A model generated the notes under the pieces. It saw nothing but the letters and a program-made list of their open reading frames with translations, did not search any database and had not been told where the DNA came from. Shown in pieces: positions 17,381 through 44,169 of a stretch of 44,216 nt of DNA (positions are counted from its first letter, which is position 1; the number at the start of each line of letters is the position of its first letter). The stretch spans positions 1 to 44,216 of the forward strand of contig MFQC01000008.1 in the NCBI GenBank assembly GCA_001784285.1. The letters run 5' to 3'. Source of the stretch: Candidatus Magasanikbacteria bacterium RIFCSPHIGHO2_02_FULL_48_18 (lineage in GTDB: Bacteria; Patescibacteriota; Patescibacteriia; Magasanikbacterales; UBA922). The position numbers and the translations under genes were made by a program.

Positions 17381-18742
17381 ATGGCATATCTCAATCCCAA
17401 ACATCTCAACCTGCTCGTGGGAAAACTCTACGACCAAGTGTTGCGGACCATTCGGGAAACGGAAGAAAAAAAAGAAAAAAATATCATTCTGTTTACCGGA
17501 AAAATTTTTGGTCATATTATTGATGCCATACGCACATATCAAAAAAAAGAAGGAATTTCTTTTCGGATTGCATTATTTCATGACGCAAAAACAAAACTGG
17601 ATGCCACAAGCGAACAGCACCGCGACAAACTCGATCTCATATTATCCTGCGATATAACGGACGATGCGGCCATTCAAAAAACATTTCTGCCGTACCAGGA
17701 TGAATTGCTGGCAATCACCTGCCGCTCGGAAAGCGAAATCCCGCTTTTGGCGCGCCTTATTCCATTTCTTCCCTATCTCAACGCGCCAACCACGGAATCG
17801 CTTCGGTGGGCGACGGATAAAATTTTGATGCGCGAAAGAATGAGCGTCCACAATCCTTCCATGATTCCGGCATTCCGGGTGATATCCGAGGTGACCCAAG
17901 CGACGCTGAAAGAAGTAGAAGAAGAGGTGGAATTTCCAATGATCATCAAGCCTGCGGGACTTGGCGCGAGCCGGCTCGTCACCATTTGCTATCACAAAGA
18001 AGAACTCGAAGACGAGCTGAAAAAAGTATTGAAAAAAATCCAAAGCGTGTATAAAGATGCGGGCGGCAAGTGGGAACCGCGCGTCCTCGTGGAACATTTC
18101 ATTGAAGGCGACATGTATTCTATTGACGCCTATGTGACCGGCCAGGGAGCTATTGCCTTCTGCCCCGTCGTCCATATCAAAACCGGCAAAACCATCGGAT
18201 TTGATGATTTTTTCGGATATCAGCAAATAACTCCAACGCTTTTGAATACGGAAAGCATTGCCGGCGTCCATGCGGTTGCGACTTCGGCCATCTATGCGCT
18301 CGGCCTCAAGCACACAACCGCCCATATTGAACTGTTCAAAACAGAAGACGGATGGAAAATTATTGAAGTTGGACCCCGAGTCGGCGGATTCCGCCACATG
18401 ATGTATGAATGTTCGCACGGAATCAATCACACCATGAATGACATCCTTGTTCGGATAGGCAAAAAAACGATCGTGCCAAAAAAAACGAAAGGATACAGCG
18501 TTGCCATGAAATTTTTTGCGAAAGAAGAAGGAAAACTCACGAGACTCGGCGGCGTTAAAAAAATCCAGGAACTCAAATCATTCAAAACCATCTACATTCA
18601 TAAACAAATCGGCGACCACTGCGCGTATGCCAAAAATGGCGGGAGTAGCGTCTTTGATATTATTATGTTCAATAAAGAGCGACCCGCGCTCTTGGCTGAC
18701 ATTCGACGGCTGGAACAAACCATTGACATCGCGACGGAATAG
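17381..18742 (+). CDS. ATP-grasp ligase of unknown substrate
   Basis: A 453-residue protein with a pre-ATP-grasp N-terminal domain (about 1-150) and an ATP-grasp core: FPMIIKPAGLGASRLV (nucleotide loop), VLVEHFIEGDMYSIDAYV, and the metal-binding segment HIELFKTEDGWKIIEVGPRVGGFRHMM. This matches carboxylate-amine ligases of the CarB/PurK-like superfamily. The C-terminal 90 residues (KGYSVAMKFFAKEEGKL onward) resemble the extra lid domain of such ligases. It is followed after 10 nt by a RimK-like ligase, so the two likely build consecutive amide bonds. No target protein or small carrier is encoded next to them. Confidence 0.8.
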   Translation: MAYLNPKHLNLLVGKLYDQVLRTIRETEEKKEKNIILFTGKIFGHIIDAIRTYQKKEGISFRIALFHDAKTKLDATSEQHRDKLDLILSCDITDDAAIQKTFLPYQDELLAITCRSESEIPLLARLIPFLPYLNAPTTESLRWATDKILMRERMSVHNPSMIPAFRVISEVTQATLKEVEEEVEFPMIIKPAGLGASRLVTICYHKEELEDELKKVLKKIQSVYKDAGGKWEPRVLVEHFIEGDMYSIDAYVTGQGAIAFCPVVHIKTGKTIGFDDFFGYQQITPTLLNTESIAGVHAVATSAIYALGLKHTTAHIELFKTEDGWKIIEVGPRVGGFRHMMYECSHGINHTMNDILVRIGKKTIVPKKTKGYSVAMKFFAKEEGKLTRLGGVKKIQELKSFKTIYIHKQIGDHCAYAKNGGSSVFDIIMFNKERPALLADIRRLEQTIDIATE

Positions 18743-18752
18743 GCCAACATAT

Positions 18753-19685
18753 ATGATCATTCACATACTCACGCATGCGCGCCCGCACAACCCGGATTCC
18801 GCGCTTACCAAAAGTCTTGATCTCCTCACGCATGCGGCCGAACGATTGGGCCATGCCATCGAAATTGTGGAAGCCAAAAAGTGCAAACTGAAATTTTATA
18901 AAGAAACAAAAATTCTCATTGAAAACAAAAAACCGCGCATTGATGTGCTCGTCGTGAAAGCGACATTTTCAGGAAACATGATTGACGCGCATGCGCCGCT
19001 TGTCCGGCAGTTTGAATTGGCGGGGATTCCCGTTGTCAATCGATACCAGCCGATTGTGCGCGCCAGCAATAAAATTTTGACACTCCAAACGCTCCACCAG
19101 AAAGGCATCCCCATGCCAAAAACATTTGTGGTCCGCTCTGCTGAATACATTGAAGACGTTATGAAAGATATCGGCAGTTATCCGGTCATTCTTAAAACTG
19201 CATCCGGATCTTCCGGCATCGGCGTTTCCATTATTGAAAGCAAACGGGGATTGCAGTCCATTATTCAGCTCCTCTCCGAACAAGAAAATGCCGCGCCCAT
19301 TATTATTCAAGAATATGTGAAAGAATCACGCGGCAAAGACATTCGCGTATTTATTGTGGGAGGCGCCATTATCGCCGCCATGGAGCGGGTTGCAACCCAA
19401 AAGGGGGAGTTCCGATCAAACTTCAGCCTCGGAGGAAAAGTAAAAATTGCGAGCTTGAGTGAAAAAGAAAAATCAATTTCCCTTCGCGCCGCCGAGGCTT
19501 GCGGCCTTGATTTTGCAGGCGTTGATGTGATGCGGACCAAGACAGGGCCAAAAATCATCGAAGTCAATTCCAACCCGGGGCTCGAAGGCATCACGCAAGC
19601 GACCGGCGTTGATGTGGCCGGCGCCATTATTGCCTATGCGGTAAAAAAAGCAAAAAAGCGCTATTCAGAGGCGAGAAAGACATAG
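18753..19685 (+). CDS. RimK-like ATP-grasp ligase
   Basis: 310 residues resembling RimK/LysX glutamate ligases, which add amino acids to a carboxyl or amino end using ATP. The N-terminal domain (MIIHILTHARPHNPDSALTK) leads to an ATP-grasp core with YPVILKTASGSSGIGVSII, IIQEYVKESRGKDIRVFIVGG, the RimK-typical block EFRSNFSLGGK, and the metal segment PKIIEVNSNPGLEGI. I placed the start at the ATG at 18753; the long upstream frame is a shadow of the preceding gene. Its 3' end overlaps the convergent hypothetical gene by 25 bp. Exact substrate unknown; no LysW-like carrier seen. Confidence 0.85.
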   Translation: MIIHILTHARPHNPDSALTKSLDLLTHAAERLGHAIEIVEAKKCKLKFYKETKILIENKKPRIDVLVVKATFSGNMIDAHAPLVRQFELAGIPVVNRYQPIVRASNKILTLQTLHQKGIPMPKTFVVRSAEYIEDVMKDIGSYPVILKTASGSSGIGVSIIESKRGLQSIIQLLSEQENAAPIIIQEYVKESRGKDIRVFIVGGAIIAAMERVATQKGEFRSNFSLGGKVKIASLSEKEKSISLRAAEACGLDFAGVDVMRTKTGPKIIEVNSNPGLEGITQATGVDVAGAIIAYAVKKAKKRYSEARKT

Positions 19686-21946: not shown

Positions 21947-22966
21947 ATGCCATCTGTTTCTCTTCACACGCTTCTCGACCAATTTTTGGAATACCTTGAA
22001 ATTGAAAAAAATCGAAGTCAAAAAACCATTCAAAATTATCATTTCTACCTTTCGCGATTTCTGTCCTGGTTTGGAGAAGACAAAAAACCGGAAAACATTT
22101 CACACGATGCTATTCGCGAATATCGCATCTGGCTCAACCGGCTGGCGGATGCGCACGGGGAACCATTGAAAAAAAATACCCAAAATTATCACCTCATTTC
22201 TCTTCGGTCGTTTCTCAAATATCTGGCAAAACGGGATATCCCGACACTGTCTGCTGAAAAAATTGAACTTATGAAAATGCCGGATCGGGATATTTCTTTT
22301 ATTGAAGGAAGCGACGTTGACCGGCTTCTCGAAATGCCGCTCCTTGAAGGAAACAGAAAAGAAGCAATCTCAGACACAATCAATACGACGCTCATAAAAT
22401 ATCGGGACAAGGCCATTTTGGAAATGCTTTTCTCCACCGGCCTGCGCGTGTCCGAGACCATTGGACTCAAAAAAGAGCAAATCAATTTGAAAAAAGACGA
22501 GTTTACGGTTTTGGGAAAAGGAAAAAAAAGCAGGGTGGTCTTTCTTTCGGAACAGGCCCGCTATTGGCTGAAAAAATATCTCGACATCAGAACCGATGCC
22601 AATCCTTTTTTATTTATTTCCCACGATAAACGGACATCCGCGTCGTCTCTGCCCGCCCGAGCCAAGAAACAGAAAAAAAATGTGCGGTCAAAAATCGAAC
22701 GCGAACAATCACTCACCGCGCGTTCTGTCCAGAGACTGGTGCAGAAATACGCGAAAGCGGCCGGAATCACCAAACCGGTGACCCCCCATTCTCTGCGTCA
22801 TTCCTTTGCGACCGATTTGTTGTATAATGGGGCAGATATCCGATCGGTGCAATCAATGCTCGGCCATTCTTCCATTACCACCACCCAAATTTATACGCAC
22901 ATTACGGATAGGGAGCTCCGTAATATCCATAAAAAATTCCATGGCAAACGGAGAGGGTCACATTGA
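21947..22966 (+). CDS. Tyrosine recombinase (XerC/XerD-like)
   Basis: 339 residues. The N-terminal SAM-like core-binding domain is EYLEIEKNRSQKTIQNYHFYL. The C-terminal catalytic domain has the full set of active-site residues: Arg in STGLRVSE, Lys in GKGKKSRVVFL, HSLRHSFATDLL (H-x-x-R), LGHSSITTTQ and the nucleophilic Tyr in QIYTHI. It resolves chromosome dimers if it is the housekeeping Xer. It is about 40 residues longer than standard XerD owing to a Lys-rich insert between the Lys strand and HSLRH. A second recombinase at 43208-44050 means only one may be the dif-acting enzyme. Confidence 0.92.
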   Translation: MPSVSLHTLLDQFLEYLEIEKNRSQKTIQNYHFYLSRFLSWFGEDKKPENISHDAIREYRIWLNRLADAHGEPLKKNTQNYHLISLRSFLKYLAKRDIPTLSAEKIELMKMPDRDISFIEGSDVDRLLEMPLLEGNRKEAISDTINTTLIKYRDKAILEMLFSTGLRVSETIGLKKEQINLKKDEFTVLGKGKKSRVVFLSEQARYWLKKYLDIRTDANPFLFISHDKRTSASSLPARAKKQKKNVRSKIEREQSLTARSVQRLVQKYAKAAGITKPVTPHSLRHSFATDLLYNGADIRSVQSMLGHSSITTTQIYTHITDRELRNIHKKFHGKRRGSH

Positions 22967-24164: not shown

Positions 24165-25274
24165 ATGCTCCAAAAGAAAAAACTCCTTCTCCTTTCGGTT
24201 TCCCAAGTTGGATATGGCCACACCAAGGCCGCGGACGCAATCCATAAAACCGCGAAAAAAGACTACGAGAAACTACTGTCTGTTGAACATATTGACCTCA
24301 TGGATTTTTTGCGTCCGACCACAAAAAAAATTATTATAAAAACCTACGATATTTTGGCGAAACATCTGCCGGAAGTATGGGGATTTTTGTACCACACCAT
24401 GAACCAGCGAACCGGAGACGCCATTCTTCGAGACATTATCGGACTTTTGAAAGGAAGAGAATCAAAAGCATTCTACGAGGCGGTACAAAAGATACAGCCC
24501 GATCATATTCTCTGCACGCATTCGCTTCCCGCGCAATTGCTGGCCATTTCTCCCCAAAAAAATATACCGCGCATCCCGCGGTCTTGCCTTATAACGGACT
24601 ATGGACTAAACCAATCATGGGTTGTGGAAGGCACAGCGCGCTACTTTGTGGCCACGCGAGAAATAAAAGAAGAACTCATACAAAAAAAAGTGGACCCGCG
24701 CGCCATAACCGTGAGCGGCATTCCGATTGATCCTGTATTTTACGAAAAAAAATCCATTTCGCTCCTCAAAAAAAAATGTGGCCTCCCAAACGCGAGGCGA
24801 GTGATTCTGGTTTTGGCGGGCGGCCAAGGATTTACCAACCTCTCACGCATTATCGAACGGCTGTTTCAGCTCCCCGACTCCGCAACCATAGTGGCCATTA
24901 CGGGGAAAAATACCAAACTGTTTTCCAAAATAAAAAAAATGGCGCCGCCGCGCCATATACGGTTTCTCCCTGTTCAGTGGACCAATGCCATTGATGACTA
25001 TATGCGCATGGCGAGTGTCATTATCACAAAGCCGGGCGGCCTGACCACAAGCGAATGCATAGCGCTTGGAAAACCCATGGTCGTGATTGATCCCATCCCC
25101 GGACAAGAAGAATGGAACGCGGCGTATATTACCAAACATCATCTTGGCGCTATTGCCAAAAAACCGAACGACATTCTCCGATTGGCCGTTAAGCCCCGAA
25201 AAATACAACAAAAAAAGCGGGGACTCCCCGCCGCAGACAGTATTATAAAGACTATCATCAATTCGATGGTTTAA
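24165..25274 (+). CDS. MGDG synthase/MurG-like glycosyltransferase
   Basis: A 369-residue GT28-family GT-B enzyme. The N-terminal domain matches the MGDG-synthase type (LLLLSVSQVGYGHTKAADAI, then HILCTHSLPAQLLA and CLITDYGLNQSWVV). The C-terminal nucleotide-sugar domain has VILVLAGGQGFTNL and the donor-binding block TKPGGLTTSECIALGKPMVV. Relatives transfer galactose, glucose or GlcNAc to diacylglycerol or undecaprenyl lipids at the inner face of the membrane. It most likely makes a membrane glycolipid. It stands about 70 bp after tRNA-His and may be read from that promoter. Its stop overlaps the stop of the convergent pilin gene by 3 nt. Confidence 0.88.
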   Translation: MLQKKKLLLLSVSQVGYGHTKAADAIHKTAKKDYEKLLSVEHIDLMDFLRPTTKKIIIKTYDILAKHLPEVWGFLYHTMNQRTGDAILRDIIGLLKGRESKAFYEAVQKIQPDHILCTHSLPAQLLAISPQKNIPRIPRSCLITDYGLNQSWVVEGTARYFVATREIKEELIQKKVDPRAITVSGIPIDPVFYEKKSISLLKKKCGLPNARRVILVLAGGQGFTNLSRIIERLFQLPDSATIVAITGKNTKLFSKIKKMAPPRHIRFLPVQWTNAIDDYMRMASVIITKPGGLTTSECIALGKPMVVIDPIPGQEEWNAAYITKHHLGAIAKKPNDILRLAVKPRKIQQKKRGLPAADSIIKTIINSMV

Positions 25275-25789
25275 AGATCATCGGCCGTAAAGAGGGGCGT
25301 ATCATACGGAATATCACATCCATAATTGATATCCTCATTTTCAAAATACGCGTTATTTCCGTAATCCTGGTACGAACCATTACAGATGCTTTTTTCTTCG
25401 GACGGCATCAAAAAACTCACGGTAATCCGGGCTATGGCATACGCGCTTAAAATAAGCGCGCCGCCGATTGCCGCGTTGACAATAATACTTCTCCCTTTTG
25501 ACATTTTCTGTTCTTCGCCCCCTGAAGTCATCATGAGATACCCGCCGTAGATGCAATAAATCGTTGTCACCATGCCAAGGAGCCCCAAAAGACTATTGAT
25601 AATAAATCCCGCTACCACGCGCGGATCTTCCGGCGCTATCTCAAGATCAGCGCCTTTTTGGCCCACGAATGCATTGGTTTGGCCTTCAAAATCCGGAACA
25701 TCAAAAATATTGGTGTTGGTTCCCGCGAATACCACGCCAGGAAAAACTACAGCGGAGAAAAAAAGAAAAAAAGAAAGAAAACGGAGCAT
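25271..25789 (-). CDS. T4SS-type pilin-like protein A (distal end of array)
   Basis: 172 residues. Signal peptide ending near VVFAG (about residue 22), then a 35-residue external segment. TM1 (VVAGFIINSLLGLLGMVTTI) leads through YGGYLMMTSGGEEQKMSKGRS, the conserved short cytoplasmic loop, into TM2 (IIVNAAIGGALILSAYAIARI). The acidic 45-residue tail carries two Cys (CNGSYQ and YGCDIP). The core matches CPR T4SS_pilin (VirB2/TrbC-like) proteins, whose relatives polymerise into conjugative pili. It is the last gene of the array, 6 nt after the previous member. Confidence 0.8.
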   Translation of the reverse strand: MLRFLSFFLFFSAVVFPGVVFAGTNTNIFDVPDFEGQTNAFVGQKGADLEIAPEDPRVVAGFIINSLLGLLGMVTTIYCIYGGYLMMTSGGEEQKMSKGRSIIVNAAIGGALILSAYAIARITVSFLMPSEEKSICNGSYQDYGNNAYFENEDINYGCDIPYDTPLFTADDL

Positions 25790-25795
25790 ACCAAC

Positions 25796-26254
25796 TTAAA
25801 AAATGTATTTATCAAACCACCCCTTTTCCGGTTCCTCCACGGTGGGTTTTTGATATTTTATGGCTTCATATACTTTGAGAACCACAAAACGGGTAATCGA
25901 ATATCCCAAAAGGACAACCGCAAGGCCGATAACCGCGGCCTGCATGGTTTTGGTTGATTTTTCAATACGGCTCTCTTCTCCCTGCGCCGTAAGCCGCCAA
26001 TATCCAGCGGCTACAATAAGCGTGATAAAAATGGTTCCCATGAGTCCAAGAATCACTTCAATAATGCCCGCGACCACAATCCGCGGATCCTGCGCCTGAA
26101 TCACCGTTCCTTCATTGTCAGTCACGACCGCGCCGATCTGACTCATGACGTCTTTTTTAAGATTTGCGGCGTTTGCGGGTGTTTTTGCAAAAACAAAACA
26201 TACAAAAAAAACGAGAGAGAAAAGAAAAAATGTTTGGAGCAACTTTTTTTTCAT
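25796..26254 (-). CDS. T4SS-type pilin-like protein B
   Basis: 152 residues. Signal peptide to about residue 29 (TPANAA), external segment of about 30 residues, TM1 (IVVAGIIEVILGLMGTIFI), loop AAGYWRLTAQGEESRIEKS, TM2 (AAVIGLAVVLLGYSITRFVV), and a short aromatic/charged tail ending GWFDKYIF. The loop has Gln-Gly-Glu-Glu in place of the usual GNED, and the tryptophan position is shifted, so it is one of the more divergent members. No Cys in the mature protein. It is coupled to neighbours in the same orientation. Confidence 0.8.
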   Translation of the reverse strand: MKKKLLQTFFLFSLVFFVCFVFAKTPANAANLKKDVMSQIGAVVTDNEGTVIQAQDPRIVVAGIIEVILGLMGTIFITLIVAAGYWRLTAQGEESRIEKSTKTMQAAVIGLAVVLLGYSITRFVVLKVYEAIKYQKPTVEEPEKGWFDKYIF

Positions 26255-26289
26255 ATATATTTTACTCCCTATGCAATTGGCAACTTGGC

Positions 26290-26766
26290 TTAACCTTCTT
26301 CTTCTAAATCATTGTCCTGACTTGATCCCCCACCGGGTTCATCCACGGGATTTTCCGACCCACCGCTCGTTGGCTGGCCTTCAACCACTTTTTCCAAAAT
26401 ACGCGGCACAATAAACGACGTAATGCTGTACGCGCCAACCGCGATAATAAGACCAATAATGGACGTCCGAATAATTTCTTGCGCTTTTTCCACTTGGTCT
26501 TCTTTCCCGCGCGCGGTCATCCATAAATAGCCGGCATAGACCATGAGCGAAAGGAAAATAATGCCAATAAAGGAAAATAATGCTTTGATCACCAACCCCA
26601 AAGTCGAGGCAAACGTAAATTCATCCGTATTTTCACCATACCCCGCTTCGTTTGCCGCGCTCTTAATAAGATCGGTGCCAATATTTTGAGCAAAAACAAA
26701 AAAAGGAGACAAACAAACCGCCAAAAGAAGAAAAACAAAAATTCCTCGGAGAAAGACATGCTTCAT
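26290..26766 (-). CDS. T4SS-type pilin-like protein C
   Basis: 158 residues from ATG 26766 (MKHVFLRG); the longer frame adds 13 residues that overlap the preceding gene. Signal peptide ends near FVFAQ. The external part is acidic (GYGENTDEF). The core is GIIFLSLMVYAGYLWMTARGKEDQVEKAQEII then TM2 (SIIGLIIAVGAYSITSFIV). The tail of about 40 residues is Gly/Pro/Asp/Glu-rich and low in complexity, with no Cys. Such tails would be exposed on the outer face if the pilin topology (both ends outside) holds. Confidence 0.82.
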   Translation of the reverse strand: MKHVFLRGIFVFLLLAVCLSPFFVFAQNIGTDLIKSAANEAGYGENTDEFTFASTLGLVIKALFSFIGIIFLSLMVYAGYLWMTARGKEDQVEKAQEIIRTSIIGLIIAVGAYSITSFIVPRILEKVVEGQPTSGGSENPVDEPGGGSSQDNDLEEEG

Positions 26767-26785
26767 AAAAAAACAAAAAAGATAA

Positions 26786-27193
26786 TTATTCTCCTCCATT
26801 TCCATTGGTCAAGTCTTGGAGTCCGCCGGCCAGCCGTGTTGTTACAAGATACGTAATGGCATAGGCGCTGAGCACAATGACCATGCCAATGACCGTGGTA
26901 ATAATAATTTGCTGTGCTTTTTTTACCTGGTCCTCATTGCCGCGCGCGGTCATCCATAAATAGCCGGCATAGACCATAAGAACAAGAAAGATAAGCCCGA
27001 CCATGGTGAGCGCGACATTGATGGTTCGCCCGACCACGACACCCGGATCTTCTTCCAGGTTGCCTCCCACATACTTTTTGGTGGTATTCAAATTTTTGAG
27101 GGCGTCTCCAAAATTTCCCTGGGCCAAAGCGAGGGTAGGCAGAAATACGAGTGAACACACCGCCAAAAATCGAACCCAAAAAAATAATTTCAT
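26786..27193 (-). CDS. T4SS-type pilin-like protein D
   Basis: 135 residues, close to the minimal form of the family. Signal peptide to about residue 24 (LALAQG), short external segment (NLNTTKKYVGGNLEEDPG), TM1 (INVALTMVGLIFLVLMVYAG), loop YLWMTARGNEDQVKKAQQII, TM2 (TTVIGMVIVLSAYAITYLV), and a 20-residue Gly/Asn tail. The loop is nearly identical to that of members C and E, making these three a subgroup. It lies 4 nt downstream of member E. Confidence 0.83.
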   Translation of the reverse strand: MKLFFWVRFLAVCSLVFLPTLALAQGNFGDALKNLNTTKKYVGGNLEEDPGVVVGRTINVALTMVGLIFLVLMVYAGYLWMTARGNEDQVKKAQQIIITTVIGMVIVLSAYAITYLVTTRLAGGLQDLTNGNGGE

Positions 27194-27197
27194 AGCG

Positions 27198-27602
27198 TTA
27201 TGGTTTATTGACTGGCGTCCCTTGAATCAATCGGGAAGACACGAGATAGGTGATGGCGTACGCGGAAAAAATTATGGTAAGTCCAATAAGCGCGGCAGTA
27301 ATCACGCGTTTTGCTTTTTCCACCTGATCTTCTTTGCCTCTTGCCGTGAGCCACAAATATCCGCCATAAAACATAAGGACAAAGAAGGCAAGACCGGACA
27401 TATAAAAGAGCACCGCGAGAACTATTCCCGCATACCCTGCCGCGTCCGTGGCTTTTAAACCGCTTTTCCCGACGACGGTTTGCAGTGCTCCACCGGCGTC
27501 GCCAACCGTTTTTTTTGCCATTGCCACGATAGGATATGCGAGTACGCTTGAGGCAGTAAAAAGTACGACATACGCCATTTTTTCTTTGAACCTTCGTATC
27601 AT
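27198..27602 (-). CDS. T4SS-type pilin-like protein E
   Basis: 134 residues. The N-terminus MIRRFKEKMAYVVLFTASSVLAYPIVAMAKK is a basic, hydrophobic signal. A short external part follows (VGDAGGALQTVVGKSGLKATDAAG), then TM1 (IVLAVLFYMSGLAFFVLMFYGG), loop YLWLTARGKEDQVEKAKRVI, TM2 (AALIGLTIIFSAYAITYLVSS) and a very short tail (IQGTPVNKP). Minimal member without Cys. Start at ATG 27602; M9 is an alternative. Confidence 0.82.
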   Translation of the reverse strand: MIRRFKEKMAYVVLFTASSVLAYPIVAMAKKTVGDAGGALQTVVGKSGLKATDAAGYAGIVLAVLFYMSGLAFFVLMFYGGYLWLTARGKEDQVEKAKRVITAALIGLTIIFSAYAITYLVSSRLIQGTPVNKP

Positions 27603-27616
27603 ATAGCATCAAAAAA

Positions 27617-28192
27617 TCACAAATCACCTGGAGGCAAATCACCACCCGATTGCTCAGCCTTTGTCTTTCCTGCGTCACAGGCATTTTGATTGGCGTATGT
27701 GCTCACACAACAATTGTCTGTTTTAGCACCACAAGTCTTTTGGTCGGCAAAGACAGCACATGACATTGAACTACCAGAAACCAAAAGACAATATTTGGTC
27801 CCATCACCTTTTCCTGCCTCACCCAAGCTTCCAAATATCAGTTTGGTGATGGCGTAGGACCCTAAAACAATTACCACCCCAATGACACCGGCAACAATGG
27901 TGTCGAGCGCCTTTTTTTCTTGGTCTTCTTTGCCATGCGCGCTCATCCACAAAAGACCACCATAAATCATAAGCCCAAAAAAGAGGACAGCAACCAACGA
28001 CAGCACCGTCCCAAGCACATTACCAATAATCGTTGGCACGTCCTGTGGATAGGACTTTAAATCGGTTTGTGACACGGTCTCTTCAAGGCCATAATCGTCC
28101 GCGAAAACCTGATGTTGCAGAAATCCAAATGAAAACAACATGACGCACGCGATGGAGAGAAGAAAAAATTGTTTGTGCATGTTTTTTTTCAT
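27617..28192 (-). CDS. T4SS-type pilin-like protein F with Cys-rich tail
   Basis: 191 residues. Signal peptide to about residue 31 (QHQVFADD), external segment TVSQTDLKSYPQDVPTI, TM1 (VLGTVLSLVAVLFFGLMIYGG), loop LLWMSAHGKEDQEKKALDTI, TM2 (VAGVIGVVIVLGSYAITKLI), then about 65 residues with six Cys, including an adjacent pair (DNCCVS). Both ends of this pilin type should face outward, so the Cys-rich tail is predicted to form a disulfide-held surface module. It shares the SYPDN/SYPQD pre-TM1 segment with member G, so F and G are sister copies. Confidence 0.83.
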   Translation of the reverse strand: MKKNMHKQFFLLSIACVMLFSFGFLQHQVFADDYGLEETVSQTDLKSYPQDVPTIIGNVLGTVLSLVAVLFFGLMIYGGLLWMSAHGKEDQEKKALDTIVAGVIGVVIVLGSYAITKLIFGSLGEAGKGDGTKYCLLVSGSSMSCAVFADQKTCGAKTDNCCVSTYANQNACDAGKTKAEQSGGDLPPGDL

Positions 28193-28219
28193 AGATAGAG
28201 AGAAAAGAAAGGATATGCC

Positions 28220-28771
28220 TCATGATTGACAGCACACAATCGTATCGTTACCCGGACAGAGGTTGATCGCGCATGAAGAGCTTTGACTACAGCTCTCCCG
28301 CTTTTCTTCAATGTTTTGGCCGGTCACTCCACTACAGGAGTCAATTGACCCGCACGACCAGCCTTCGCCTTTTTTGATACACGCACTGTCGTCATTTTTT
28401 GGATCCGTTTCATTGAGGCGGGTGAAAATGAGCTTGGTCAATGCATACGCGGAAACAATAATCGTCATGCCAATAACAGCCGCAATCACGGTGCGCAAAG
28501 CTTTTTTTTCCTGTTCCTCATTGCCCCGCGCCATCATCCAGATAAACCCGCCATAGACCATGAGAATAAAGAAAAAAACCGCGATAAATGACAGAAGCGT
28601 CCCGATAAACCCGCCCGTAATTTCCATTATATTATCCGGATAACTCGTGAGACCGGCAGACGCCGCGGTTTTGTCCGCTCCATGCAAACCGACCGCAAAA
28701 ACGGCAGAGAACCCAAACAGGAAACCAATGACCAAAAAAACAAGAAAAAATGTCACCGCCTGTTTTTTCAT
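28220..28771 (-). CDS. T4SS-type pilin-like protein G with Cys-rich tail
   Basis: 183 residues from ATG 28771 (MKKQAVTF). Signal peptide ends near AVFAVG. Pre-TM1 segment SAGLTSYPDNIMEI, TM1 (FIGTLLSFIAVFFFILMVYGG), loop FIWMMARGNEEQEKKALRTV, TM2 (AAVIGMTIIVSAYALTKLIF). The roughly 60-residue tail has eight Cys, ending in IVCCQS. The tail differs in length and spacing from that of member F despite the very similar core, so the external module has diverged faster than the membrane part. Confidence 0.83.
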   Translation of the reverse strand: MKKQAVTFFLVFLVIGFLFGFSAVFAVGLHGADKTAASAGLTSYPDNIMEITGGFIGTLLSFIAVFFFILMVYGGFIWMMARGNEEQEKKALRTVIAAVIGMTIIVSAYALTKLIFTRLNETDPKNDDSACIKKGEGWSCGSIDSCSGVTGQNIEEKRESCSQSSSCAINLCPGNDTIVCCQS

Positions 28772-28792
28772 ACTCCACGCCAAACACGAACC

Positions 28793-29185
28793 TTAATTAA
28801 AATACACATTATTCGTTGTGGCTTCGTAGAGCTGTGTCAACAAAAACCGTGTAATAATAAATGAACTCAGAATAACAATCAGCCCAATAACCGCCGCAAA
28901 CAAAATTTTCTGGGCCTTTTTGGACTGGTCTTCATTTCCCGCGGAGGTCATCCATACGAAGCCGGCGTAGATAATAATCACGATCGCGACGGTTCCCAAA
29001 ATACCAAGCGCGGTATTGATAATTTTTGCCGTGGAAAACCGCACGTCCTCGTTGCCAAGACCGGTATATTTTCCATAATTGAGGCCCAGTGGATCTTTAT
29101 CCTGAAGGGCATACACGGCTGGCGCGTGCGCAAAACCGGAAACCGCAACCAAGAACGCGGTAAAGAAAAAAAATAATTTTTTCAT
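28793..29185 (-). CDS. T4SS-type pilin-like protein H
   Basis: 130 residues. Signal peptide to about residue 26 (PAVYALQ). External segment KDPLGLNYGKYTGLGNEDVR, TM1 (IINTALGILGTVAIVIIIYAG), loop FVWMTSAGNEDQSKKAQKIL, TM2 (AAVIGLIVILSSFIITRFLL), and a short tail TNNVYFN. It is intermediate between the minimal group (C-E) and the I-J-K group, sharing the FVWMTSAGNED loop with the latter style. No Cys. No Shine-Dalgarno precedes the ATG. Confidence 0.83.
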   Translation of the reverse strand: MKKLFFFFTAFLVAVSGFAHAPAVYALQDKDPLGLNYGKYTGLGNEDVRFSTAKIINTALGILGTVAIVIIIYAGFVWMTSAGNEDQSKKAQKILFAAVIGLIVILSSFIITRFLLTQLYEATTNNVYFN

Positions 29186-29206
29186 AGTTTCATGAATGGA
29201 AAAAAT

Positions 29207-29707
29207 TTATGAAACATTTCCCGATCCGGTCGCTTGCGACAGACTGGTAATCACAAACTTCGCGATCGCCCAGGCGGAAAGAATGATGGCAAGACCAATA
29301 ATGCCGGCAAAAATCATTTTTCTTGATTCGGCCACTTTGTCTTCGTTTCCTCCGGCAGTCATCCATTTGAATCCGCCGATTAGGATAATGACAACGGCGA
29401 TAACGCCGAGAAGGCCGAGGGCGACGTTGATAAGACTGGTGATGGTTTCAATAAGCGGTTTTTGGCCAAGACTGCCACCAAGACCTGATTGGATTTCTGT
29501 CATGCCAAAATTCATGACGCATTTACCAGTACCAGCGTCGCATGCTTCCCCAAAACCGCACGGCAAGCTTGGCGAACAGGCGTTTCCGGGTGTTGCAAAA
29601 ACAAATGACGGCGCGGCAAAAAAGAGCGCGGCAAAAAAAGACAAAGCCAGAAGACTTACTTTCCAATAATGATTTACGGCAGAAGCTGCCAAATGATAGA
29701 CTAACAT
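29207..29707 (-). CDS. T4SS-type pilin-like protein I (I-J-K triplet)
   Basis: 166 residues from ATG 29707; upstream in-frame Met codons lie inside a hairpin and are not favoured. The hydrophobic signal ends near FVFATP. A mature N-terminal Cys module has four Cys (NACSPSLPCGFGEACDAGTG then KCVMNFG). The core SLINVALGLLGVIAVVIILI-GGFKWMTAGGNEDKVAESRK-MIFAGIIGLAIILSAWAIAK-FVITSLSQATGSGNVS is almost the same in I, J and K. It is separated from J by a strong terminator and a second hairpin, so it probably has its own transcript. 52 nt at the 3' end are identical to K. Confidence 0.85.
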   Translation of the reverse strand: MLVYHLAASAVNHYWKVSLLALSFFAALFFAAPSFVFATPGNACSPSLPCGFGEACDAGTGKCVMNFGMTEIQSGLGGSLGQKPLIETITSLINVALGLLGVIAVVIILIGGFKWMTAGGNEDKVAESRKMIFAGIIGLAIILSAWAIAKFVITSLSQATGSGNVS

Positions 29708-29738
29708 AGAAAAAAATAAATAATGTGCCGCTTTTGAG

Positions 29739-29785
29739 GGCATGGCAATACTCACAGCAGACAATACTCTGAATATTGCAATGCC
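29739..29785. repeat. Imperfect hairpin in the leader of pilin I
   Basis: GGCATGGCAATA (29739-29750) and TATTGCAATGCC (29774-29785) pair over 12 positions with one mismatch. It lies between the J terminator and the pilin I start and may be an RNA leader structure. Confidence 0.6.
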
Positions 29786-29793
29786 ATGGAAAG

Positions 29794-29832
29794 AAAAAAA
29801 GGGGCAAAGGCCTTTCTCCTGCCCCTTTTTTT
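29794..29832. terminator. Strong terminator after pilin J
   Basis: AAAAAAAGGGGC (29794-29805) pairs perfectly with GCCCCTTTTTTT (29821-29832); the loop itself contains AAAGGCCTTT. It lies 5 nt after the J stop in the direction of transcription (minus). Confidence 0.93.
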
Positions 29833-29836
29833 GCTA

Positions 29837-30319
29837 TCAGACATTTCCGGATCCTGTTGCTTGCGACAAACTCGTAATCACAAACTTGGCGATTGCCCAA
29901 GCCGAAAGGATAATTGCTAAACCAATGATACCCGCGAAAATCATTTTTCTTGCTTCTCCCACTTTGTCTTCGTTTCCTCCGGCGGTCATCCATTTGAATC
30001 CACCAATAAGGATAATGACAACGGCGATAACGCCGAGAAGGCCGAGGGCAACGTTGATAAGACTGGTGATGGTTCCAATAAGGGATTTATTTCCCAAAGT
30101 TCCTTCAAGGCCATTTCCAACCGAATTAACACCAAAGGTAGTCACACATTTTAATGCCCCATCAACGTCCTGACACACTTGCTGAAACCCACAATCTGCA
30201 TTTGTGGTACATGTTTGCGCGCCAACATCGGACACAAACAATGACAGGGCAAACGCAAGGACGATTCCTATAGACATCATCCATGAAAATCGTTTTACCA
30301 ATACTGCTGTACTATTCAC
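29837..30319 (-). CDS. T4SS-type pilin-like protein J (I-J-K triplet)
   Basis: 160 residues from a GTG at 30319. I choose this start because it sits 7 nt after AAAGGAGGTGATC, a match to the full 16S anti-Shine-Dalgarno, and gives a good signal peptide (basic, then SIGIVLAFALSLFVSDVGAQ). The long frame extending upstream into pilin K is a shadow. The mature N-terminus has a four-Cys module (TCTTNADCGFQQVCQ and KCVTTFG). The core and C-terminus are those of the I-J-K group. It is predicted to be strongly translated and terminated just downstream. Confidence 0.85.
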   Translation of the reverse strand: MNSTAVLVKRFSWMMSIGIVLAFALSLFVSDVGAQTCTTNADCGFQQVCQDVDGALKCVTTFGVNSVGNGLEGTLGNKSLIGTITSLINVALGLLGVIAVVIILIGGFKWMTAGGNEDKVGEARKMIFAGIIGLAIILSAWAIAKFVITSLSQATGSGNV

Positions 30320-30321
30320 AT

Positions 30322-30335
30322 GATCACCTCCTTTC
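30322..30335 (-). promoter_or_regulatory. Full-length Shine-Dalgarno of pilin J
   Basis: Minus-strand GAAAGGAGGTGATC is complementary over 14 nt to the usual bacterial 16S rRNA 3' tail. It decides the GTG start at 30319 and suggests high translation. Few genes in this window have a comparable site. Confidence 0.8.
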
Positions 30336-30372
30336 GGTTGCGCTGATTCATAACACATAACAAAGGAAGACA

Positions 30373-30852
30373 CTACAAAACATTTCCCGATCCGGTCGCT
30401 TGCGACAGACTGGTAATCACAAACTTCGCAATGGCCCACGCGGCCAAGATAATCGCAAGACCAATAATGCCGGCGAAGATAAGCTTTCTCGCTTCGGCCA
30501 CTTTGTCTTCGTTTCCTCCGGCAGTCATCCATTTGAATCCGCCGATCAAGATAATGACGACGGCAATGACGCCGAGAAGGCCGAGGGCGACGTTGATAAC
30601 GCTGGTAATAGTTGCGATAAGGGATTTATTTCCAAGACTGCCGCCAAGGCCGGATTGGACCTGTTCCACCCCAAAATTCGCGACACATTTCAAATTGGAA
30701 CAAGATTCGCCAAAATCACAATCGGCTATTTCGGCACAGGTATCCCCGACTTCCGCGGAAACCATTCCCGGGAGAATAAGCACGAGAGCAAATACAATAG
30801 CGAACATGACATACCAGACATTTTCTTTCAGCAACGCTTTAGTTGTGCTCAT
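30373..30852 (-). CDS. T4SS-type pilin-like protein K (I-J-K triplet)
   Basis: 159 residues from ATG 30852, preceded by a GAGGGGGTGA ribosome site. Signal peptide to about LPGMVSAEV. A four-Cys N-terminal module follows (DTCAEIADCDFGESCS and KCVANFG), then the I-J-K core and the same C-terminus as I. The longer upstream frame of this ORF is leader. A 131-bp gap before it holds an ATAACG/CGTTAT hairpin with an A-rich loop, and may carry its promoter (candidates only). The first of the three near-copies in transcription order. Confidence 0.85.
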   Translation of the reverse strand: MSTTKALLKENVWYVMFAIVFALVLILPGMVSAEVGDTCAEIADCDFGESCSNLKCVANFGVEQVQSGLGGSLGNKSLIATITSVINVALGLLGVIAVVIILIGGFKWMTAGGNEDKVAEARKLIFAGIIGLAIILAAWAIAKFVITSLSQATGSGNVL

Positions 30853-30983
30853 AGTTTCACCCCCTCTCTGTTTAAAGATAACGATCTGTTTTTTCTCTGA
30901 CGTTATGCAGAGATAAAACCATTTATACAATATCAATGGCTTTATCTTTCCAAAACGAAATCCCCCAATTTTATAATTCATTT

Positions 30984-31583
30984 TTAACCTTCTTTCCATT
31001 CACAGTCTACCAAGTCGCCAAATTCCTCTAAAGACTGGCCTGTCATTTCTTGACACTGTAGAGGACCAAGTACATTTGGCACGATCTCTTTACCACTATA
31101 CCAAGTTGATGAGCCGCAATAACATGCCGCATTGCCGCCACTTGTTTGACCGGTATCGGCTTGAAATCCCTTTGCGCCAAGGCTCTTCAAGAATGCACTC
31201 AGTATACCATAGCTTATAAAAATAATTAAGAGTCCCAAACTCGCATACACCATAATATGCGTTCCTTTTTTAATTTTTTCAGGATTGCCGCTCGACGCAA
31301 GCCACTCCCAGCCGCCAAACACAAACACCAAAAGCGTTATCGAGCCGAGCACAGTCAGACTTTTTGCAATGAGATTGCCAAGAATTTTGGGCGTACTCGT
31401 GACGCCAACCGGATTATCGAGTTTGCCACCAAGCGGATTAATGAGTTTGACTGTTTGATTTTGGCCGTCTGCGCCCAATACGACAGAGGCAGTAATAAAA
31501 AAGAAAAAGACACTAACCATAGTGCCAAGAAAAAAAATCTTGCTCAAAAAAAGAGATGTTGCCAATTTTCCCAAAATACGCAT
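30984..31583 (-). CDS. T4SS-type pilin-like protein L with Cys tail
   Basis: 199 residues from ATG 31583 (MRILGKLA), with AAAGGTG upstream; a GTG two codons earlier is possible. The N-terminus is a long hydrophobic signal ending near VVLGAD. External segment NQTVKLINPLGGKLDNPVGV, TM1 (LIAKSLTVLGSITLLVFVFGG), loop WEWLASSGNPEKIKKGTHIM, TM2 (YASLGLLIIFISYGILSAFL). The roughly 60-residue tail has four Cys (ACYCGSS, QCQEM and DCEWK). The segment KLINPLGG plus GNPEKIKKG is reminiscent of VirB2-like pilins in related genomes. A likely minor or tip subunit. Confidence 0.8.
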   Translation of the reverse strand: MRILGKLATSLFLSKIFFLGTMVSVFFFFITASVVLGADGQNQTVKLINPLGGKLDNPVGVTSTPKILGNLIAKSLTVLGSITLLVFVFGGWEWLASSGNPEKIKKGTHIMVYASLGLLIIFISYGILSAFLKSLGAKGFQADTGQTSGGNAACYCGSSTWYSGKEIVPNVLGPLQCQEMTGQSLEEFGDLVDCEWKEG

Positions 31584-31600
31584 AGACACACCTTTTCGTC

Positions 31601-32503
31601 CTATTGGAACGGTTGCGTAAACAAATCACTGACTTGAAACGCATCCAGTACAAAGTTTACCATAAGATACGCGCTAAAAGCAATCGTCAAACCAACGGCC
31701 GCGCCAACCAAAATGCCTTGTGCTTTTTTAACTTTTTCCGCGTTGCCAAAAGACAATACCATGGTAAAACCGCCATAGATAAAAATGACAAACGCCAATG
31801 AGCCGATAATGCGAAACGCCCAATTGGCGATATTCACCGCAAGTTGAAGGAGGTCATTGACGTCTTTGCACTGTCCGGTAAACGCGCATTCCGGCAACGG
31901 GCCATCATACCACTCCGGCATTTTGTATTGGTCGGCGTATGCCTCAAGAATCGCGGCTTTTTTTTCTTCGGCCGTGAGCTCCTCCTTCTTTTTGCATGTT
32001 TTATTTTCACTCACCCAAATGCAAAATTGGCCAACACCATCACATGCGGTTTCATCTTTCTGTGACGTGCAATCAACATCAATTTTAATGACAAGTGTTC
32101 CGGTAATTTTGGCGTCAAAGTACATCCCATCTGCCGGGCGATACGCCTGAAGTTCAATCCCCTGCCAAGGGCCATCGGCGCCGGAAAGATCCCATTTTAC
32201 AACAGCACTTCCGTTGTTTAAATCGTCTACCGTTGCCCCCGTCTTACAATTTAAACAAGTGATCTGTGTTTTGCTGTCCCCTGTTGTTTCTACTTTAAAA
32301 TCAACTTTTTCACCAAGTTTAACCGTGAGCGCGGGTTTGTCAATCTTACCCAAATTTGTTTTCCAAGAAAGGGGGTACTTCTTTTCATAATTGATATCGA
32401 CAATTGCCTGTGCCATTTTTGGAAGAACACCAACAATAATCGCTGAAAGAAAAAAGAGCAAAAAAAATGAGAAAGAAAAAAAATTTTGCCGTTTTGACAT
32501 CAT
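31601..32503 (-). CDS. Large T4SS-type pilin-like protein M with external domain
   Basis: 300 residues. Signal peptide to about residue 33 (KMAQAI). A roughly 185-residue external domain, with a beta-rich first part (PALTVKLGEKVDFKVETTGD, then VVKWDLSGADGPWQGIEL) and Cys pairs CLNCKTG, DCTSQKDETACDGVGQFC, KTCKKK and ECAFTGQC. The usual core follows: LAVNIANWAFRIIGSLAFVIFIYGG, loop TMVLSFGNAEKVKKAQGIL, TM2 (AAVGLTIAFSAYLMVNFV) and a short tail. It is twice the size of other members, which suggests a specialised (for example adhesive or tip) subunit. It lies 17 nt upstream of member L. Confidence 0.8.
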   Translation of the reverse strand: MMSKRQNFFSFSFFLLFFLSAIIVGVLPKMAQAIVDINYEKKYPLSWKTNLGKIDKPALTVKLGEKVDFKVETTGDSKTQITCLNCKTGATVDDLNNGSAVVKWDLSGADGPWQGIELQAYRPADGMYFDAKITGTLVIKIDVDCTSQKDETACDGVGQFCIWVSENKTCKKKEELTAEEKKAAILEAYADQYKMPEWYDGPLPECAFTGQCKDVNDLLQLAVNIANWAFRIIGSLAFVIFIYGGFTMVLSFGNAEKVKKAQGILVGAAVGLTIAFSAYLMVNFVLDAFQVSDLFTQPFQ

Positions 32504-32527
32504 ACTATGGTATAAACCAATATAAAC

Positions 32528-33904
32528 CTACATGGTTTGTTGCAGAACAGCCGCCGCGTTTTTGATAATGGCTCTGTCGCGCTCAAACGGATTTTGCGTC
32601 TCTCCATACGGCTCCAAAAGACGGTCCGCCATTTCCGCCAAGGTCTGATTTGCCACCTCTATATCATTGCCTCGGTACCAATTGGCCGCGTTCAATACCG
32701 TTCCCACAAAAGGAAGAAGCCGCTCGTCCTCTTTTTGCGCTTCAATGTGGGCGCGAAGAGGCGTCGGCTGTTTGGTCGCGTCCGTATATTTTTTGATATT
32801 TTCCGGCGTGGTCAAAAATCGAATAAAATCCCAGGCTTCATTCTGATGCTCGGATTTGGCAACCACGGACTGAATCCAATAATTGGCCACGTTCACCGGA
32901 CTGCCTTCGTTCAACTGCGGCAGGGGAATCACATCCATATTCAACTGCGGCGCCTGGGCTTTGATCCGGTCATAATCAAACGAAAAACCAAAATAAAAGA
33001 CCACTTTCCCCCTCACAAACGCGTCAAACGAATTGTCCAAATCACCATTCCACGTGTACGCCTCGCTCGTGGGGCGCGCGAAATCCGTATAAAATTTAAT
33101 TGCCTGCATGCTGGGGCTGTCTGCCCCGCCCTTTTCAACATTTTGCGCGAATGTTACCGTATTGCCCACGGTCATGGGAATACCATTTTGCGCGAACAAA
33201 AGCGCCAAAATGTCCGAAACATACTGAACGTTTGCGCCGGATCCAAGCGCCGTGCCAGACTGCACAATCCGTCCTTCAGAATCAAACTTGGTTGTTTTTT
33301 TTACCGCGTCCAAAAATTCCGCCCACGTGGTTGGCGGTTCAGGGATACCGGCGTTATCGAGCAAATCTTTATTATAATAAATCGCCATGGTATCAACAGC
33401 CGTGGGAAGTCCATATATTTTTTTATTGATAATGACATCATCGGCAACGGTGGCAATAAAATCTTTTTTAATGGAATTCACCGTTGGCATGGATTTTTTT
33501 TCCATGGTGACAATGGTTTCCGGGCGATATTTGCCTTCAACCCAAATGGTTGCCACGTCCACGGATGGCGGCATGTATGCCAAACGGCGGACGTATTGCG
33601 GCAAAAGCCGCGCTTGGATGGAAATGATATCGGGTGCCACATCGTCGGCAAGCGCATTCAAAAAAAGCTCGTCAAATTCTTCATAGCGCACCTGCCGGAT
33701 ATTCACGGTTACATACGAGCGAATGCGCTTATACTCTTCGGCCAATGTGCGCAATTCAGCGACATTATCATGCACGGTCCAATACTGAAGCGTCGTGGGT
33801 TTCACCGCGGCCTGTTCTTCTGTGGAAAGACCGCGACACCCAAAACCGGCAACCATTGTTACGAGCAAAAAGGAAGAAAACAGCCAAAAAAATCGTTTTT
33901 TCAT
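32528..33904 (-). CDS. Extracellular solute-binding lipoprotein (ABC sugar type)
   Basis: 458 residues of the SBP family 1 (maltose/glycerol-3-phosphate-type) fold. A basic hydrophobic signal runs up to VAGFGC, a loose lipobox with the Cys at about residue 23. The binding protein follows: LQYWTVHDNVAELRTLAEEY, APDIISIQARLLPQYV, YGLPTAVDTMAIYYNKDLLDNAGI, PTTWAEFLDAVKKTT and a FIRFLTTPENIKKYTD hinge region. Normally it would deliver a sugar or peptide to an ABC permease, but no permease or ATPase is adjacent. It is embedded in the pilin array, 1 nt after pilin N and 24 nt before M. Confidence 0.88.
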   Translation of the reverse strand: MKKRFFWLFSSFLLVTMVAGFGCRGLSTEEQAAVKPTTLQYWTVHDNVAELRTLAEEYKRIRSYVTVNIRQVRYEEFDELFLNALADDVAPDIISIQARLLPQYVRRLAYMPPSVDVATIWVEGKYRPETIVTMEKKSMPTVNSIKKDFIATVADDVIINKKIYGLPTAVDTMAIYYNKDLLDNAGIPEPPTTWAEFLDAVKKTTKFDSEGRIVQSGTALGSGANVQYVSDILALLFAQNGIPMTVGNTVTFAQNVEKGGADSPSMQAIKFYTDFARPTSEAYTWNGDLDNSFDAFVRGKVVFYFGFSFDYDRIKAQAPQLNMDVIPLPQLNEGSPVNVANYWIQSVVAKSEHQNEAWDFIRFLTTPENIKKYTDATKQPTPLRAHIEAQKEDERLLPFVGTVLNAANWYRGNDIEVANQTLAEMADRLLEPYGETQNPFERDRAIIKNAAAVLQQTM

Positions 33905-33905
33905 A

Positions 33906-34319
33906 TTATTTCAAAATATCAAGCACAAACGTGACAAGGGCGTAGCTCGACAGTACGGCAATTGATCCAAACGCCGCCCACACCAGGACAAGCATGCCTT
34001 TCTTTCGTCGTTCGGAATTGCCGGCAGACGTCATCCAGAGGATGCCCCCATAGACAAAAAAACCCAACGCCACACTGCCCATGATTGACAAAAAGAAAAA
34101 ATCGATAAACCGCCCAACCAATGTTTGCGGCGTGGCGCCATTCCACTGGTCCAAATTTTTAAAATTCTCGAGTGCAATAATGGGAGTGCTGGCGTCGGCG
34201 GTATTTCCGGGTGGCGGCGCGGCAAAAACAGAAGAAAAAAGCGCAACAAAAAAGATCGCGCCAAAAAAGAAAAAAAGAAATGCGCGAAAATATAGTTTGT
34301 CTCTACGCGGCATAAACAT
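33906..34319 (-). CDS. T4SS-type pilin-like protein N (first member after galU)
   Basis: 137 residues. Basic start MFMPRRDKLYF, a long Phe-rich signal ending near SVFAAP. External segment NTADASTPIIALENFKNLDQ, TM1 (FIDFFFLSIMGSVALGFFVYGG), loop ILWMTSAGNSERRKKGMLVL, TM2 (VWAAFGSIAVLSSYALVTFVL) and almost no tail (DILK). No Cys. The loop GNSERRKKG is a divergent GNED-KKA. It begins 6 nt after galU and ends 1 nt before the solute-binding lipoprotein, so those three genes form one operon. Confidence 0.8.
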   Translation of the reverse strand: MFMPRRDKLYFRAFLFFFFGAIFFVALFSSVFAAPPPGNTADASTPIIALENFKNLDQWNGATPQTLVGRFIDFFFLSIMGSVALGFFVYGGILWMTSAGNSERRKKGMLVLVWAAFGSIAVLSSYALVTFVLDILK

Positions 34320-34325
34320 ATTGCA

Positions 34326-35201
34326 TCACGATGATTCAGCCAGCATGGATCGTATTTCTTCGCTCATGTCTTCGCCTTTCAGGGCAAAATGAAGCGCGGT
34401 TTTTAACAATCCCAAAGTGTTGCCGGTATCAAAATAGGTTCCTTCATATTGATATGCGAAAAACGGCCGATGTTTGGCCAGGCTGTTGGCCGCGTCGGCA
34501 ACCCAAATTTCTCCCGACCGTCCCGCTTTTTGATTTTCCAAATAGCGCCAAATATCTTTGGTAAACACATACCGCATCCCCCCGATAATCAACCCGTGCG
34601 GCGACGTATTTTTTTTCGATGGTTTTTCGATGAGACGCTCCACGCGAAATGTCCTCGGCTCTTGGGTCGGTTTTCCATAGACATTTCCATAGCGCGTCAT
34701 GGCGTCTCGATTGTCAATGTGCTGTACGCCGATAACGGACGCGCGCCTTTTTTGAAAAATATCCAGCAATTGCCGAATGACCGGCACCGAACTATCAATG
34801 ATGCTGTCGCCATCGGAAAAGACAAATGGCTCCTCGCCAATAAATTCTCTCGCGCACAAAAGCGCATGGCCGTTGCCGAGCGGCGCCGATTGCCGAGTAT
34901 AAAAAAAACGAACAGTTTTTGATAACAAAATTAATGGTTTGAGCAAATCGAGCTTTCCCTGCTTTTCCAGCACATACTCCAAATCGTAATCCCGATCAAA
35001 ATGATCTTCGATCGCCCGTTTTTGCGAACTGGTGACAAAAATAATTTCGGTTATGCCGCTCTCGGCCATTTCTTCCACGATGTATTGCACGACCGGTTTA
35101 TCGAGGACTGGAAGCATTTCTTTTGGCATGGCTTTGGTTGCGGGAAGAAATCGGGTGCCAAGCCCGGCGACAGTAATAACACCTTTGCGAATTGAAGACA
35201 T
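34326..35201 (-). CDS. galU: UTP--glucose-1-phosphate uridylyltransferase
   Basis: A 291-residue nucleotidyltransferase making UDP-glucose for glycans and glycolipids. The signature VITVAGLGTRFLPATKAMPKEMLPVLDKPVVQY (nucleotide loop plus catalytic Lys) is at the N-terminus. The metal-binding Asp region FSDGDSIID and the C-terminal EGTYFDTGNTLGLLKTAL are canonical. The ATG at 35201 gives MSSIRKGVITV; the upstream in-frame codons lie over the -10 region. It is transcribed with the following pilin and lipoprotein genes. UDP-sugars could feed the glycosyltransferase at 24165 or surface glycosylation. Confidence 0.95.
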   Translation of the reverse strand: MSSIRKGVITVAGLGTRFLPATKAMPKEMLPVLDKPVVQYIVEEMAESGITEIIFVTSSQKRAIEDHFDRDYDLEYVLEKQGKLDLLKPLILLSKTVRFFYTRQSAPLGNGHALLCAREFIGEEPFVFSDGDSIIDSSVPVIRQLLDIFQKRRASVIGVQHIDNRDAMTRYGNVYGKPTQEPRTFRVERLIEKPSKKNTSPHGLIIGGMRYVFTKDIWRYLENQKAGRSGEIWVADAANSLAKHRPFFAYQYEGTYFDTGNTLGLLKTALHFALKGEDMSEEIRSMLAESS

Positions 35202-35235
35202 AAAAAAATCAAAACTCATTGGATCTTTGCCGGGA

Positions 35236-35264
35236 AGTATACCAAAAAACAAAAAACATTCCAA
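35236..35264 (-). promoter_or_regulatory. Promoter of galU and the pilin operon
   Basis: On the minus strand TTGGAA (35264-35259), 17 bp, TATACT (35241-35236). It is back to back with the peptidase promoter; the two -35 boxes are 9 bp apart. Confidence 0.65.
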
Positions 35265-39477: not shown

Positions 39478-39570
39478 ACATATATTCTTTTGCAATGTGA
39501 TTCCTTTAAAGGAAACGACGGCCTTTCGTCTCTTTCAAAGTTCTCACATTCTTCCCCTAAAAATAATTCT

Positions 39571-44050: not shown

Positions 44051-44081
44051 ACCCTCCTTGCGATTACACGTTAATAAGAAA

Positions 44082-44090
44082 ATAATAGCA
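44082..44090 (-). promoter_or_regulatory. Extended -10 of the second recombinase
   Basis: On the minus strand TGC then TATTAT (44087-44082), 31 nt before the ATG at 44050. No clear -35. Confidence 0.45.
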
Positions 44091-44129
44091 GAAATAAAAG
44101 AAAATAGGAAGGGGTTGGTATAACAGGAG

Positions 44130-44169
44130 TTCGGCAACATCACTCGCTTCGCTCGTGTATGTTGCCGAA
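44130..44169. repeat. Perfect 11-bp inverted repeat at the window edge
   Basis: TTCGGCAACAT (44130-44140) and ATGTTGCCGAA (44159-44169) with an 18-nt centre that itself has CAC/GTG pairing. A second hairpin, GCGTGA-GGA-TCACGC, follows at 44174-44188. GTATAAC lies 5 bp before the first arm. Confidence 0.7.

Follow-up and report, generated by a model that had tools for sequence, protein, structure and literature searches.

Tandem arrays of pilin genes related to type IV secretion systems (T4SS) are, as such, already known in the Patescibacteria and are not new. Quinonero-Coronel et al. (2025; PMC12102498) described 441 arrays of 2–11 VirB2-like pilins in 383 patescibacterial assemblies, with a mean identity of about 25%, and suggested an adaptation to different hosts. 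Pilin genes of Ca. Southlakia, a cultivated member of the phylum, were reported as essential (Wang et al., 2023; PMC10633639); a relaxase is absent in most published arrays. In a metatranscriptome of Paceibacteria that live on methanogens, T4SS pilins were listed with the most highly expressed of the secreted proteins (PMC10936435). Besides patescibacterial arrays, the systems closest to the locus described below are (i) the VirB2/TrbC and archaeal CedA1/TedC conjugation pili, whose subunits are likewise membrane pilins of small size, with two helices and a short loop, (ii) Mbov_0395 (NF045849) of Mycoplasma integrative and conjugative elements (ICEs), a pilin-like protein of conjugal transfer, and (iii) Bartonella Trw, where pilin genes (VirB2/VirB5) form tandem copies in a T4SS without coupling protein (PMC12102498; PMC12857230).

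The locus considered here lies in a stretch of 44,216 nucleotides (the window; contig MFQC01000008.1, positions 1 to 44,216) from the 1.1-Mb, 99% complete genome of Candidatus Magasanikbacteria bacterium RIFCSPHIGHO2_02_FULL_48_18. A previous annotation based on the letters only, i.e., the sequence-only reading, had claimed fourteen paralogous pilin genes on the minus strand between positions 34319 and 25271; all were located (pil01 to pil14), together with one non-pilin gene inside the interval, coding for a solute-binding protein (SBP; 32528–33904, minus strand). This SBP, the most telling neighbour of the pilins, had been missed, and so had both the arrays in the literature and the giant proteins with a pilin domain that are encoded elsewhere in the genome. 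The locus resembles published patescibacterial arrays (PMC12102498; PMC10633639) by the phylum, the Pfam family, the tandem diverged pilins and a monoderm-type VirB4, but differs from them by having 14 genes instead of 2–11, by being unlinked to virB4, on which the published analysis was centred, by keeping the order of its subunits, and by carrying an orphan SBP and galU. The literature search, which covered some sources in part only, returned no mention of ordered subunits, orphan SBP or galU with patescibacterial arrays, and nothing joining Patescibacteria, solute-binding protein and pilin. Within that scope, no published description was found for (i) the conserved order of orthologous pilins across 43 arrays, (ii) the orphan SBP tied to pilins, (iii) VirB4 and PrgI on another contig with no VirD4 found, and (iv) the fusion of a pilin hairpin to giant surface proteins. 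We regard the chances as about even that the locus encodes a T4SS-driven multi-subunit surface fibre, with a conserved core pilin, specialised decorated subunits, and an SBP that has been turned from import to binding.

Pilin family and conserved gene order

The profile search that the sequence-only reading had proposed in advance confirmed the T4SS_pilin family (PF18895; curated cut-off of 26.6 bits). The source genome, searched in six frames, gave PF18895 matches at 18 places, 14 of which are the array genes (E ≤ 4.2e-4 for all 14); the cut-off was reached by 12 of the 14 in the genome scan and by 9 in single-protein scans, pil03 and pil13 staying under it in both. Since just one of 14 control genomes was matched (Haloferax volcanii), the match is specific. 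As for VirB2, PF04956 (VirB2/TrbC) gave weak matches that never passed its cut-off (best 23.3 bits versus 27.9; 3 of 24 members at E ≤ 0.01), and the lack in the PDB of a sequence match or of a fold match better than E = 1.2, the many paralogues and the large extensions further distinguish the array from VirB2/TrbC. As for Mbov_0395, 39 of 39 members of the core-pilin class (that of pil04, pil05 and pil06) match it by profile, although the core pilin of the window, with 36.6 bits, is just under the NF045849 cut-off of 40; moreover, Mbov_0395 sits in a conjugation element whereas the present array has a conserved chromosomal context. An unrelated two-helix membrane family is ruled out by the PF18895 and NF045849 matches, and weak Pfam matches to GPCR, cytochrome bd and DctQ families were discarded as hydrophobic noise. 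Every Pil protein, as read from its sequence, exhibits the architecture previously announced, namely a hydrophobic, signal-like N-terminus, then two hydrophobic helices and a short loop that contains glycine and is polar as in the T4SS_pilin layout; for pil05, AlphaFold2 gave a helical hairpin (pLDDT of about 95). The shared loop motif was real but too strictly written at first (no literal match among the 14), a loosened form, [GA]G-x2-[WMR]-[MLV]-x3-G-[NKE], being present in all 14.

The sequence-only reading also called for a search of relatives for clustering and conserved order, and homologous loci there proved strongly clustered. Across 43 arrays (395 pilins), with pilins paired as reciprocal best matches, the rank correlation of gene order averaged a rho of 0.900 over 462 array pairs spanning different families and orders, versus 0.000 with shuffled partners (sd 0.023, maximum 0.051, 200 runs); this comparison is not a p-value, as the arrays are related and a few loci are duplicated from the same genomes via two collections. 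Clustering resolved eight large orthologue classes, each in 28–42 of the 43 arrays and most at a typical position, the pil04–06 class being the most widely conserved (42 arrays). Because the order of orthologues is conserved, most array positions look like specialised parts rather than interchangeable variants, and ordered orthology favours a structure of specialised parts. Between the two possibilities initially raised, the dedicated multi-subunit surface fibre gains ground, its polymerisation being something we infer, and the set of alternative subunits loses it, since variability is apparent in the pil02 ectodomain and the pil04–06 copies only.

Orphan solute-binding protein and unlinked T4SS genes

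The SBP (458 aa, lipoprotein-like N-terminus; SBP_bac_8, 6.6e-29) has sugar-binding proteins as best PDB relatives. While it resembles the SBPs of carbohydrate ABC transporters (SBP_bac_1/8) by sequence family and secretion, it differs from them by residing in a genome without PF00528 permease and by being the fixed neighbour of pilins. The permease family BPD_transp_1 (PF00528) was not found in the source genome, in 51 of 59 relatives or in 17 of 20 remote genomes, the latter picked for long contigs among SBP-bearing genomes sampled over the phylum; the control genomes were positive in 14 of 14 cases. Given that no such permease is found in the genome, the SBP does not appear to be an ordinary importer part. 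Its closest named relatives are from Ca. Magasanikbacteria (about 50% identity), then from Falkow-, Uhr- and Buchananbacteria, lineages that we take to be Patescibacteria of or near the class ABY1. With the SBP as query, a pilin gene followed it on the same strand, at most 400 bp away, in 66 of 74 named loci (median gap of 12 bp), and galU preceded it by at most 2.5 kb in 34 of 72. Over the phylum, an SBP relative is present in 204 of the 287 genomes sampled, and pilins adjoin it in 16 of the 20 remote genomes; in three genomes (G117, G082 and G158) the only pilins are two, both beside the SBP. At four loci (L193, L195, L196 and L197), an SBP relative apart from pilins bears an apparent N-terminal membrane anchor. 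The phylum-wide linkage suggests a shared function, for which surface binding is the simplest proposal; the SBP would most likely work with the fibre at the cell surface, binding a glycan or ligand and thereby serving contact with other cells.

That no VirB4 or channel gene accompanies the array, as initially pointed out, holds for the window but not for the genome, where the search for VirB4 that had been advised was successful. Contig C9 encodes a VirB4 ATPase, of which a 230-aa N-terminal part is separate, as well as PrgI, a comF-like protein and a protein of 1832 aa. The VirB4 belongs to the CD1110 family (346.9 bits, over the cut-off of 325) and also matches the Mbov_0397 VirB4 family of Mycoplasma ICEs; near virB4, PrgI, in the VirB3/PrgI role, scores 35.6 bits (over the cut-off of 27), and the 1832-aa protein, with N-terminal membrane segments and no profile match, may be VirB6-like, an assignment by position only. 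VirB4 was also found in 54 of the 59 relatives. The coupling ATPase VirD4 (PF02534) was not found in the source genome, which makes DNA export by the usual route unlikely. Altogether, the pilin family, the co-occurrence of VirB4, and the kinship that ties both the core pilin and the VirB4 to conjugation elements of Mycoplasma favour a putative assembly of T4SS type.

Subunits, giant pilin-domain proteins and flanking genes

Along the array, all genes being on the minus strand and scores referring to PF18895, pil01 (33906–34319; 137 aa, 29.5 bits; class in 28 of 43 arrays) precedes the SBP gene, and pil02 (31601–32503; 300 aa, 31.9 bits) directly follows it. The latter consists of a Cys-containing ectodomain, for which AlphaFold2 gave a low-confidence, beta-rich and not assignable model, then a P-x-C...C stub and the pilin core, both conserved in the alignment. 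Cys-rich C-terminal tails occur in pil03 (30984–31589; 201 aa, four Cys, 23.0 bits, under cut-off; class in 37 of 43 arrays), pil08 (28220–28783; 187 aa, eight Cys, 27.1 bits) and pil09 (27617–28192; 191 aa, six Cys, 25.9 bits and TrbC/VirB2 at 7.6e-5, both under cut-off as single protein). The core-pilin class comprises pil04 (30373–30852; 41.8 bits), pil05 (29837–30319; 41.3 bits, NF045849 at 2.8e-9) and pil06 (29207–29764, start uncertain; 42.7 bits), each with its own four-Cys module, N-terminal in pil04, in a diverged upstream part; the start of pil04 is probably at 30852 and that of pil05 probably at 30319, the longest open reading frames, to 30999 and 30532, respectively, likely beginning too early. 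The remaining genes are pil07 (28793–29185; 130 aa, 34.2 bits), pil10 (27198–27602; 134 aa, 25.0 bits, under cut-off as single protein), pil11 (26786–27193; 135 aa, 26.8 bits; class in 35 of 43 arrays), pil12 (26290–26805; 171 aa, 25.6 bits, under cut-off as single protein; 28 of 43), pil13 (25796–26254; 152 aa, 22.4 bits, under cut-off; 14 of 43) and the last gene pil14 (25271–25789; 172 aa, 28.5 bits; 12 of 43), just beyond which a consensus scan gave a terminator-like hairpin with T-run (25216–25232, minus strand).

Elsewhere in the source genome, on contig C1, a surface protein of 4157 aa (L033:5263-17736) opens with a signal-like stretch and a hairpin of the pilin type, after which come TIG, Ig-like, YCF48-like and Cys-rich regions, and its neighbour of about 750 aa has a start of the same type. 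The pair was present in nine of nine relatives fetched, with giants of 2262–3995 aa, a count that is not a frequency since these contigs were chosen for having large hits; it adjoins hisS/lepB-like genes in relatives and ftsA/ftsZ-like genes in the source genome. Of note, the source genome encodes two more weak pilin-domain proteins at L032:9476-10630, beside radA/recG-like genes, and L035:8215-9711, and one relative (L044:16419-17843) joins a pilin hairpin and a lytic transglycosylase (SLT) domain in a single protein, possibly as a VirB1-like part.

Upstream of the array lies a galU-like gene for a UTP-glucose-1-phosphate uridylyltransferase (34326–35264, minus strand; TIGR01099, 283 bits, cut-off of 326.8 not reached), an order repeated in many relatives. 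At the far end, a gene for an MGDG-synthase/GT28-like glycosyltransferase (24165–25274, plus strand; PF06925, 7.8e-27) converges on the array, with synteny in many relatives according to gene maps. In a relative (L039:12603-16492), galU and the T4SS pilin array are directly preceded by type IV pilin-like (N_methyl) minor pilin genes, and genes of similar size occur in other relatives as well. Two tyrosine-recombinase (Xer/integrase) genes are present in the window (21947–22966 and 43208–44143), yet the array is syntenic across families and a mobile element is not favoured. Promoter-like sites were close to expectation (25 versus 17.4 in shuffled sequence, sd 3.9) and left unused. The window also contains several ATP-grasp ligase genes (5389–7908 and 17381–19685; D-Ala-ligase-like, L-amino-acid-ligase-like and RimK-like) and codes for an 839-aa protein with a DUF5667 domain (39490–42009).

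Readings of the locus and their bearing

In the surface fibre proposed above, the pil04–06 class would probably provide the bulk subunit, and the other pilins, with their fixed places in the gene order and their Cys-rich or variable extracellular ends, would be specialised minor subunits. Pilin hairpins would be held in the cytoplasmic membrane until the unlinked VirB4/PrgI machinery assembles the subunits, and the SBP would bind a glycan or ligand at the surface as fibre partner, leading to contact with other cells. Several observations weigh against such a fibre. No filament has been seen; VirB4 and the array lie on separate contigs in the source genome, and in G027, a genome in one contig, a distance of at least about 250 kb lies between them; the SBP lies away from pilins in 4 of the 20 remote genomes; and the absence of PF00528 leaves room for a transporter from some other family. 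When the core pilin was compared with the PDB, Foldseek returned chance-level helical hairpins (best E = 1.2) and no VirB2 structure, helical hairpins yielding a weak signal in this method, and the pilin profile had no match among PDB sequences. Besides, several subunit ectodomains reach 200–350 aa and fused proteins about 4000 aa, parts for which a VirB2 pilus, being tightly packed, would scarcely have room along its whole length. More tentatively, the orphan SBP and the ordered VirB2-like pilins could form one ancestral, phylum-wide contact or uptake organelle, with the giants built on the same hairpin; this would be a T4SS fibre in which each subunit has its own specialised role and into which the SBP has been recruited.

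Unlikely is the explanation that the hairpins are plain membrane anchors without polymerisation, the array then being a cluster of anchored surface proteins. The N-terminal hairpin of the 4157-aa and roughly 750-aa surface proteins, the transglycosylase fusion in a relative and the fruitless PDB fold search speak for it; nonetheless, many subunits have little beyond the hairpin and would be poor as mere anchors, the loop and helix glycines are conserved across pilin classes, and VirB4 co-occurs in 54 of 59 genomes. About as unlikely is a pool of alternative pilins whose expression or recombination would shift host range or antigenicity, a reading proposed for Bartonella Trw and put forward for Patescibacteria in PMC12102498. 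It would account for the pil02 ectodomain, which varies among species from about 20 to over 300 aa on a strict core and Cys stub, for the pil04–06 genes, whose core DNA is about 78–93% identical (60-base blocks) and upstream DNA about 50% or less, and for matched orthologues that are on average 33% identical in the flanks versus 53% in the cores. However, ordered orthology over the 43 arrays implies that most copies are distinct and of old origin instead of having arisen lately as variants, and while the Trw copies are read as sequence variants, those described here are ordered, old orthologues. Finally, an uptake device, where the SBP would catch sugars or solutes and the pilin/T4SS pass them inward in place of an ABC importer, would fit a permease-less SBP linked phylum-wide to pilins but is very improbable, for it has no identified route across the membrane and we know of no T4SS importing small solutes.

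The locus bears on the way in which ultra-small episymbionts attach to other cells and feed from them. In this respect, the SBP–pilin unit offers a named and usually single-copy partner, amenable to deletion, purification and ligand testing, and ordered orthology predicts a structure of specialised subunits rather than a pool of variants, an alternative that proteomics or cryo-electron microscopy could decide.

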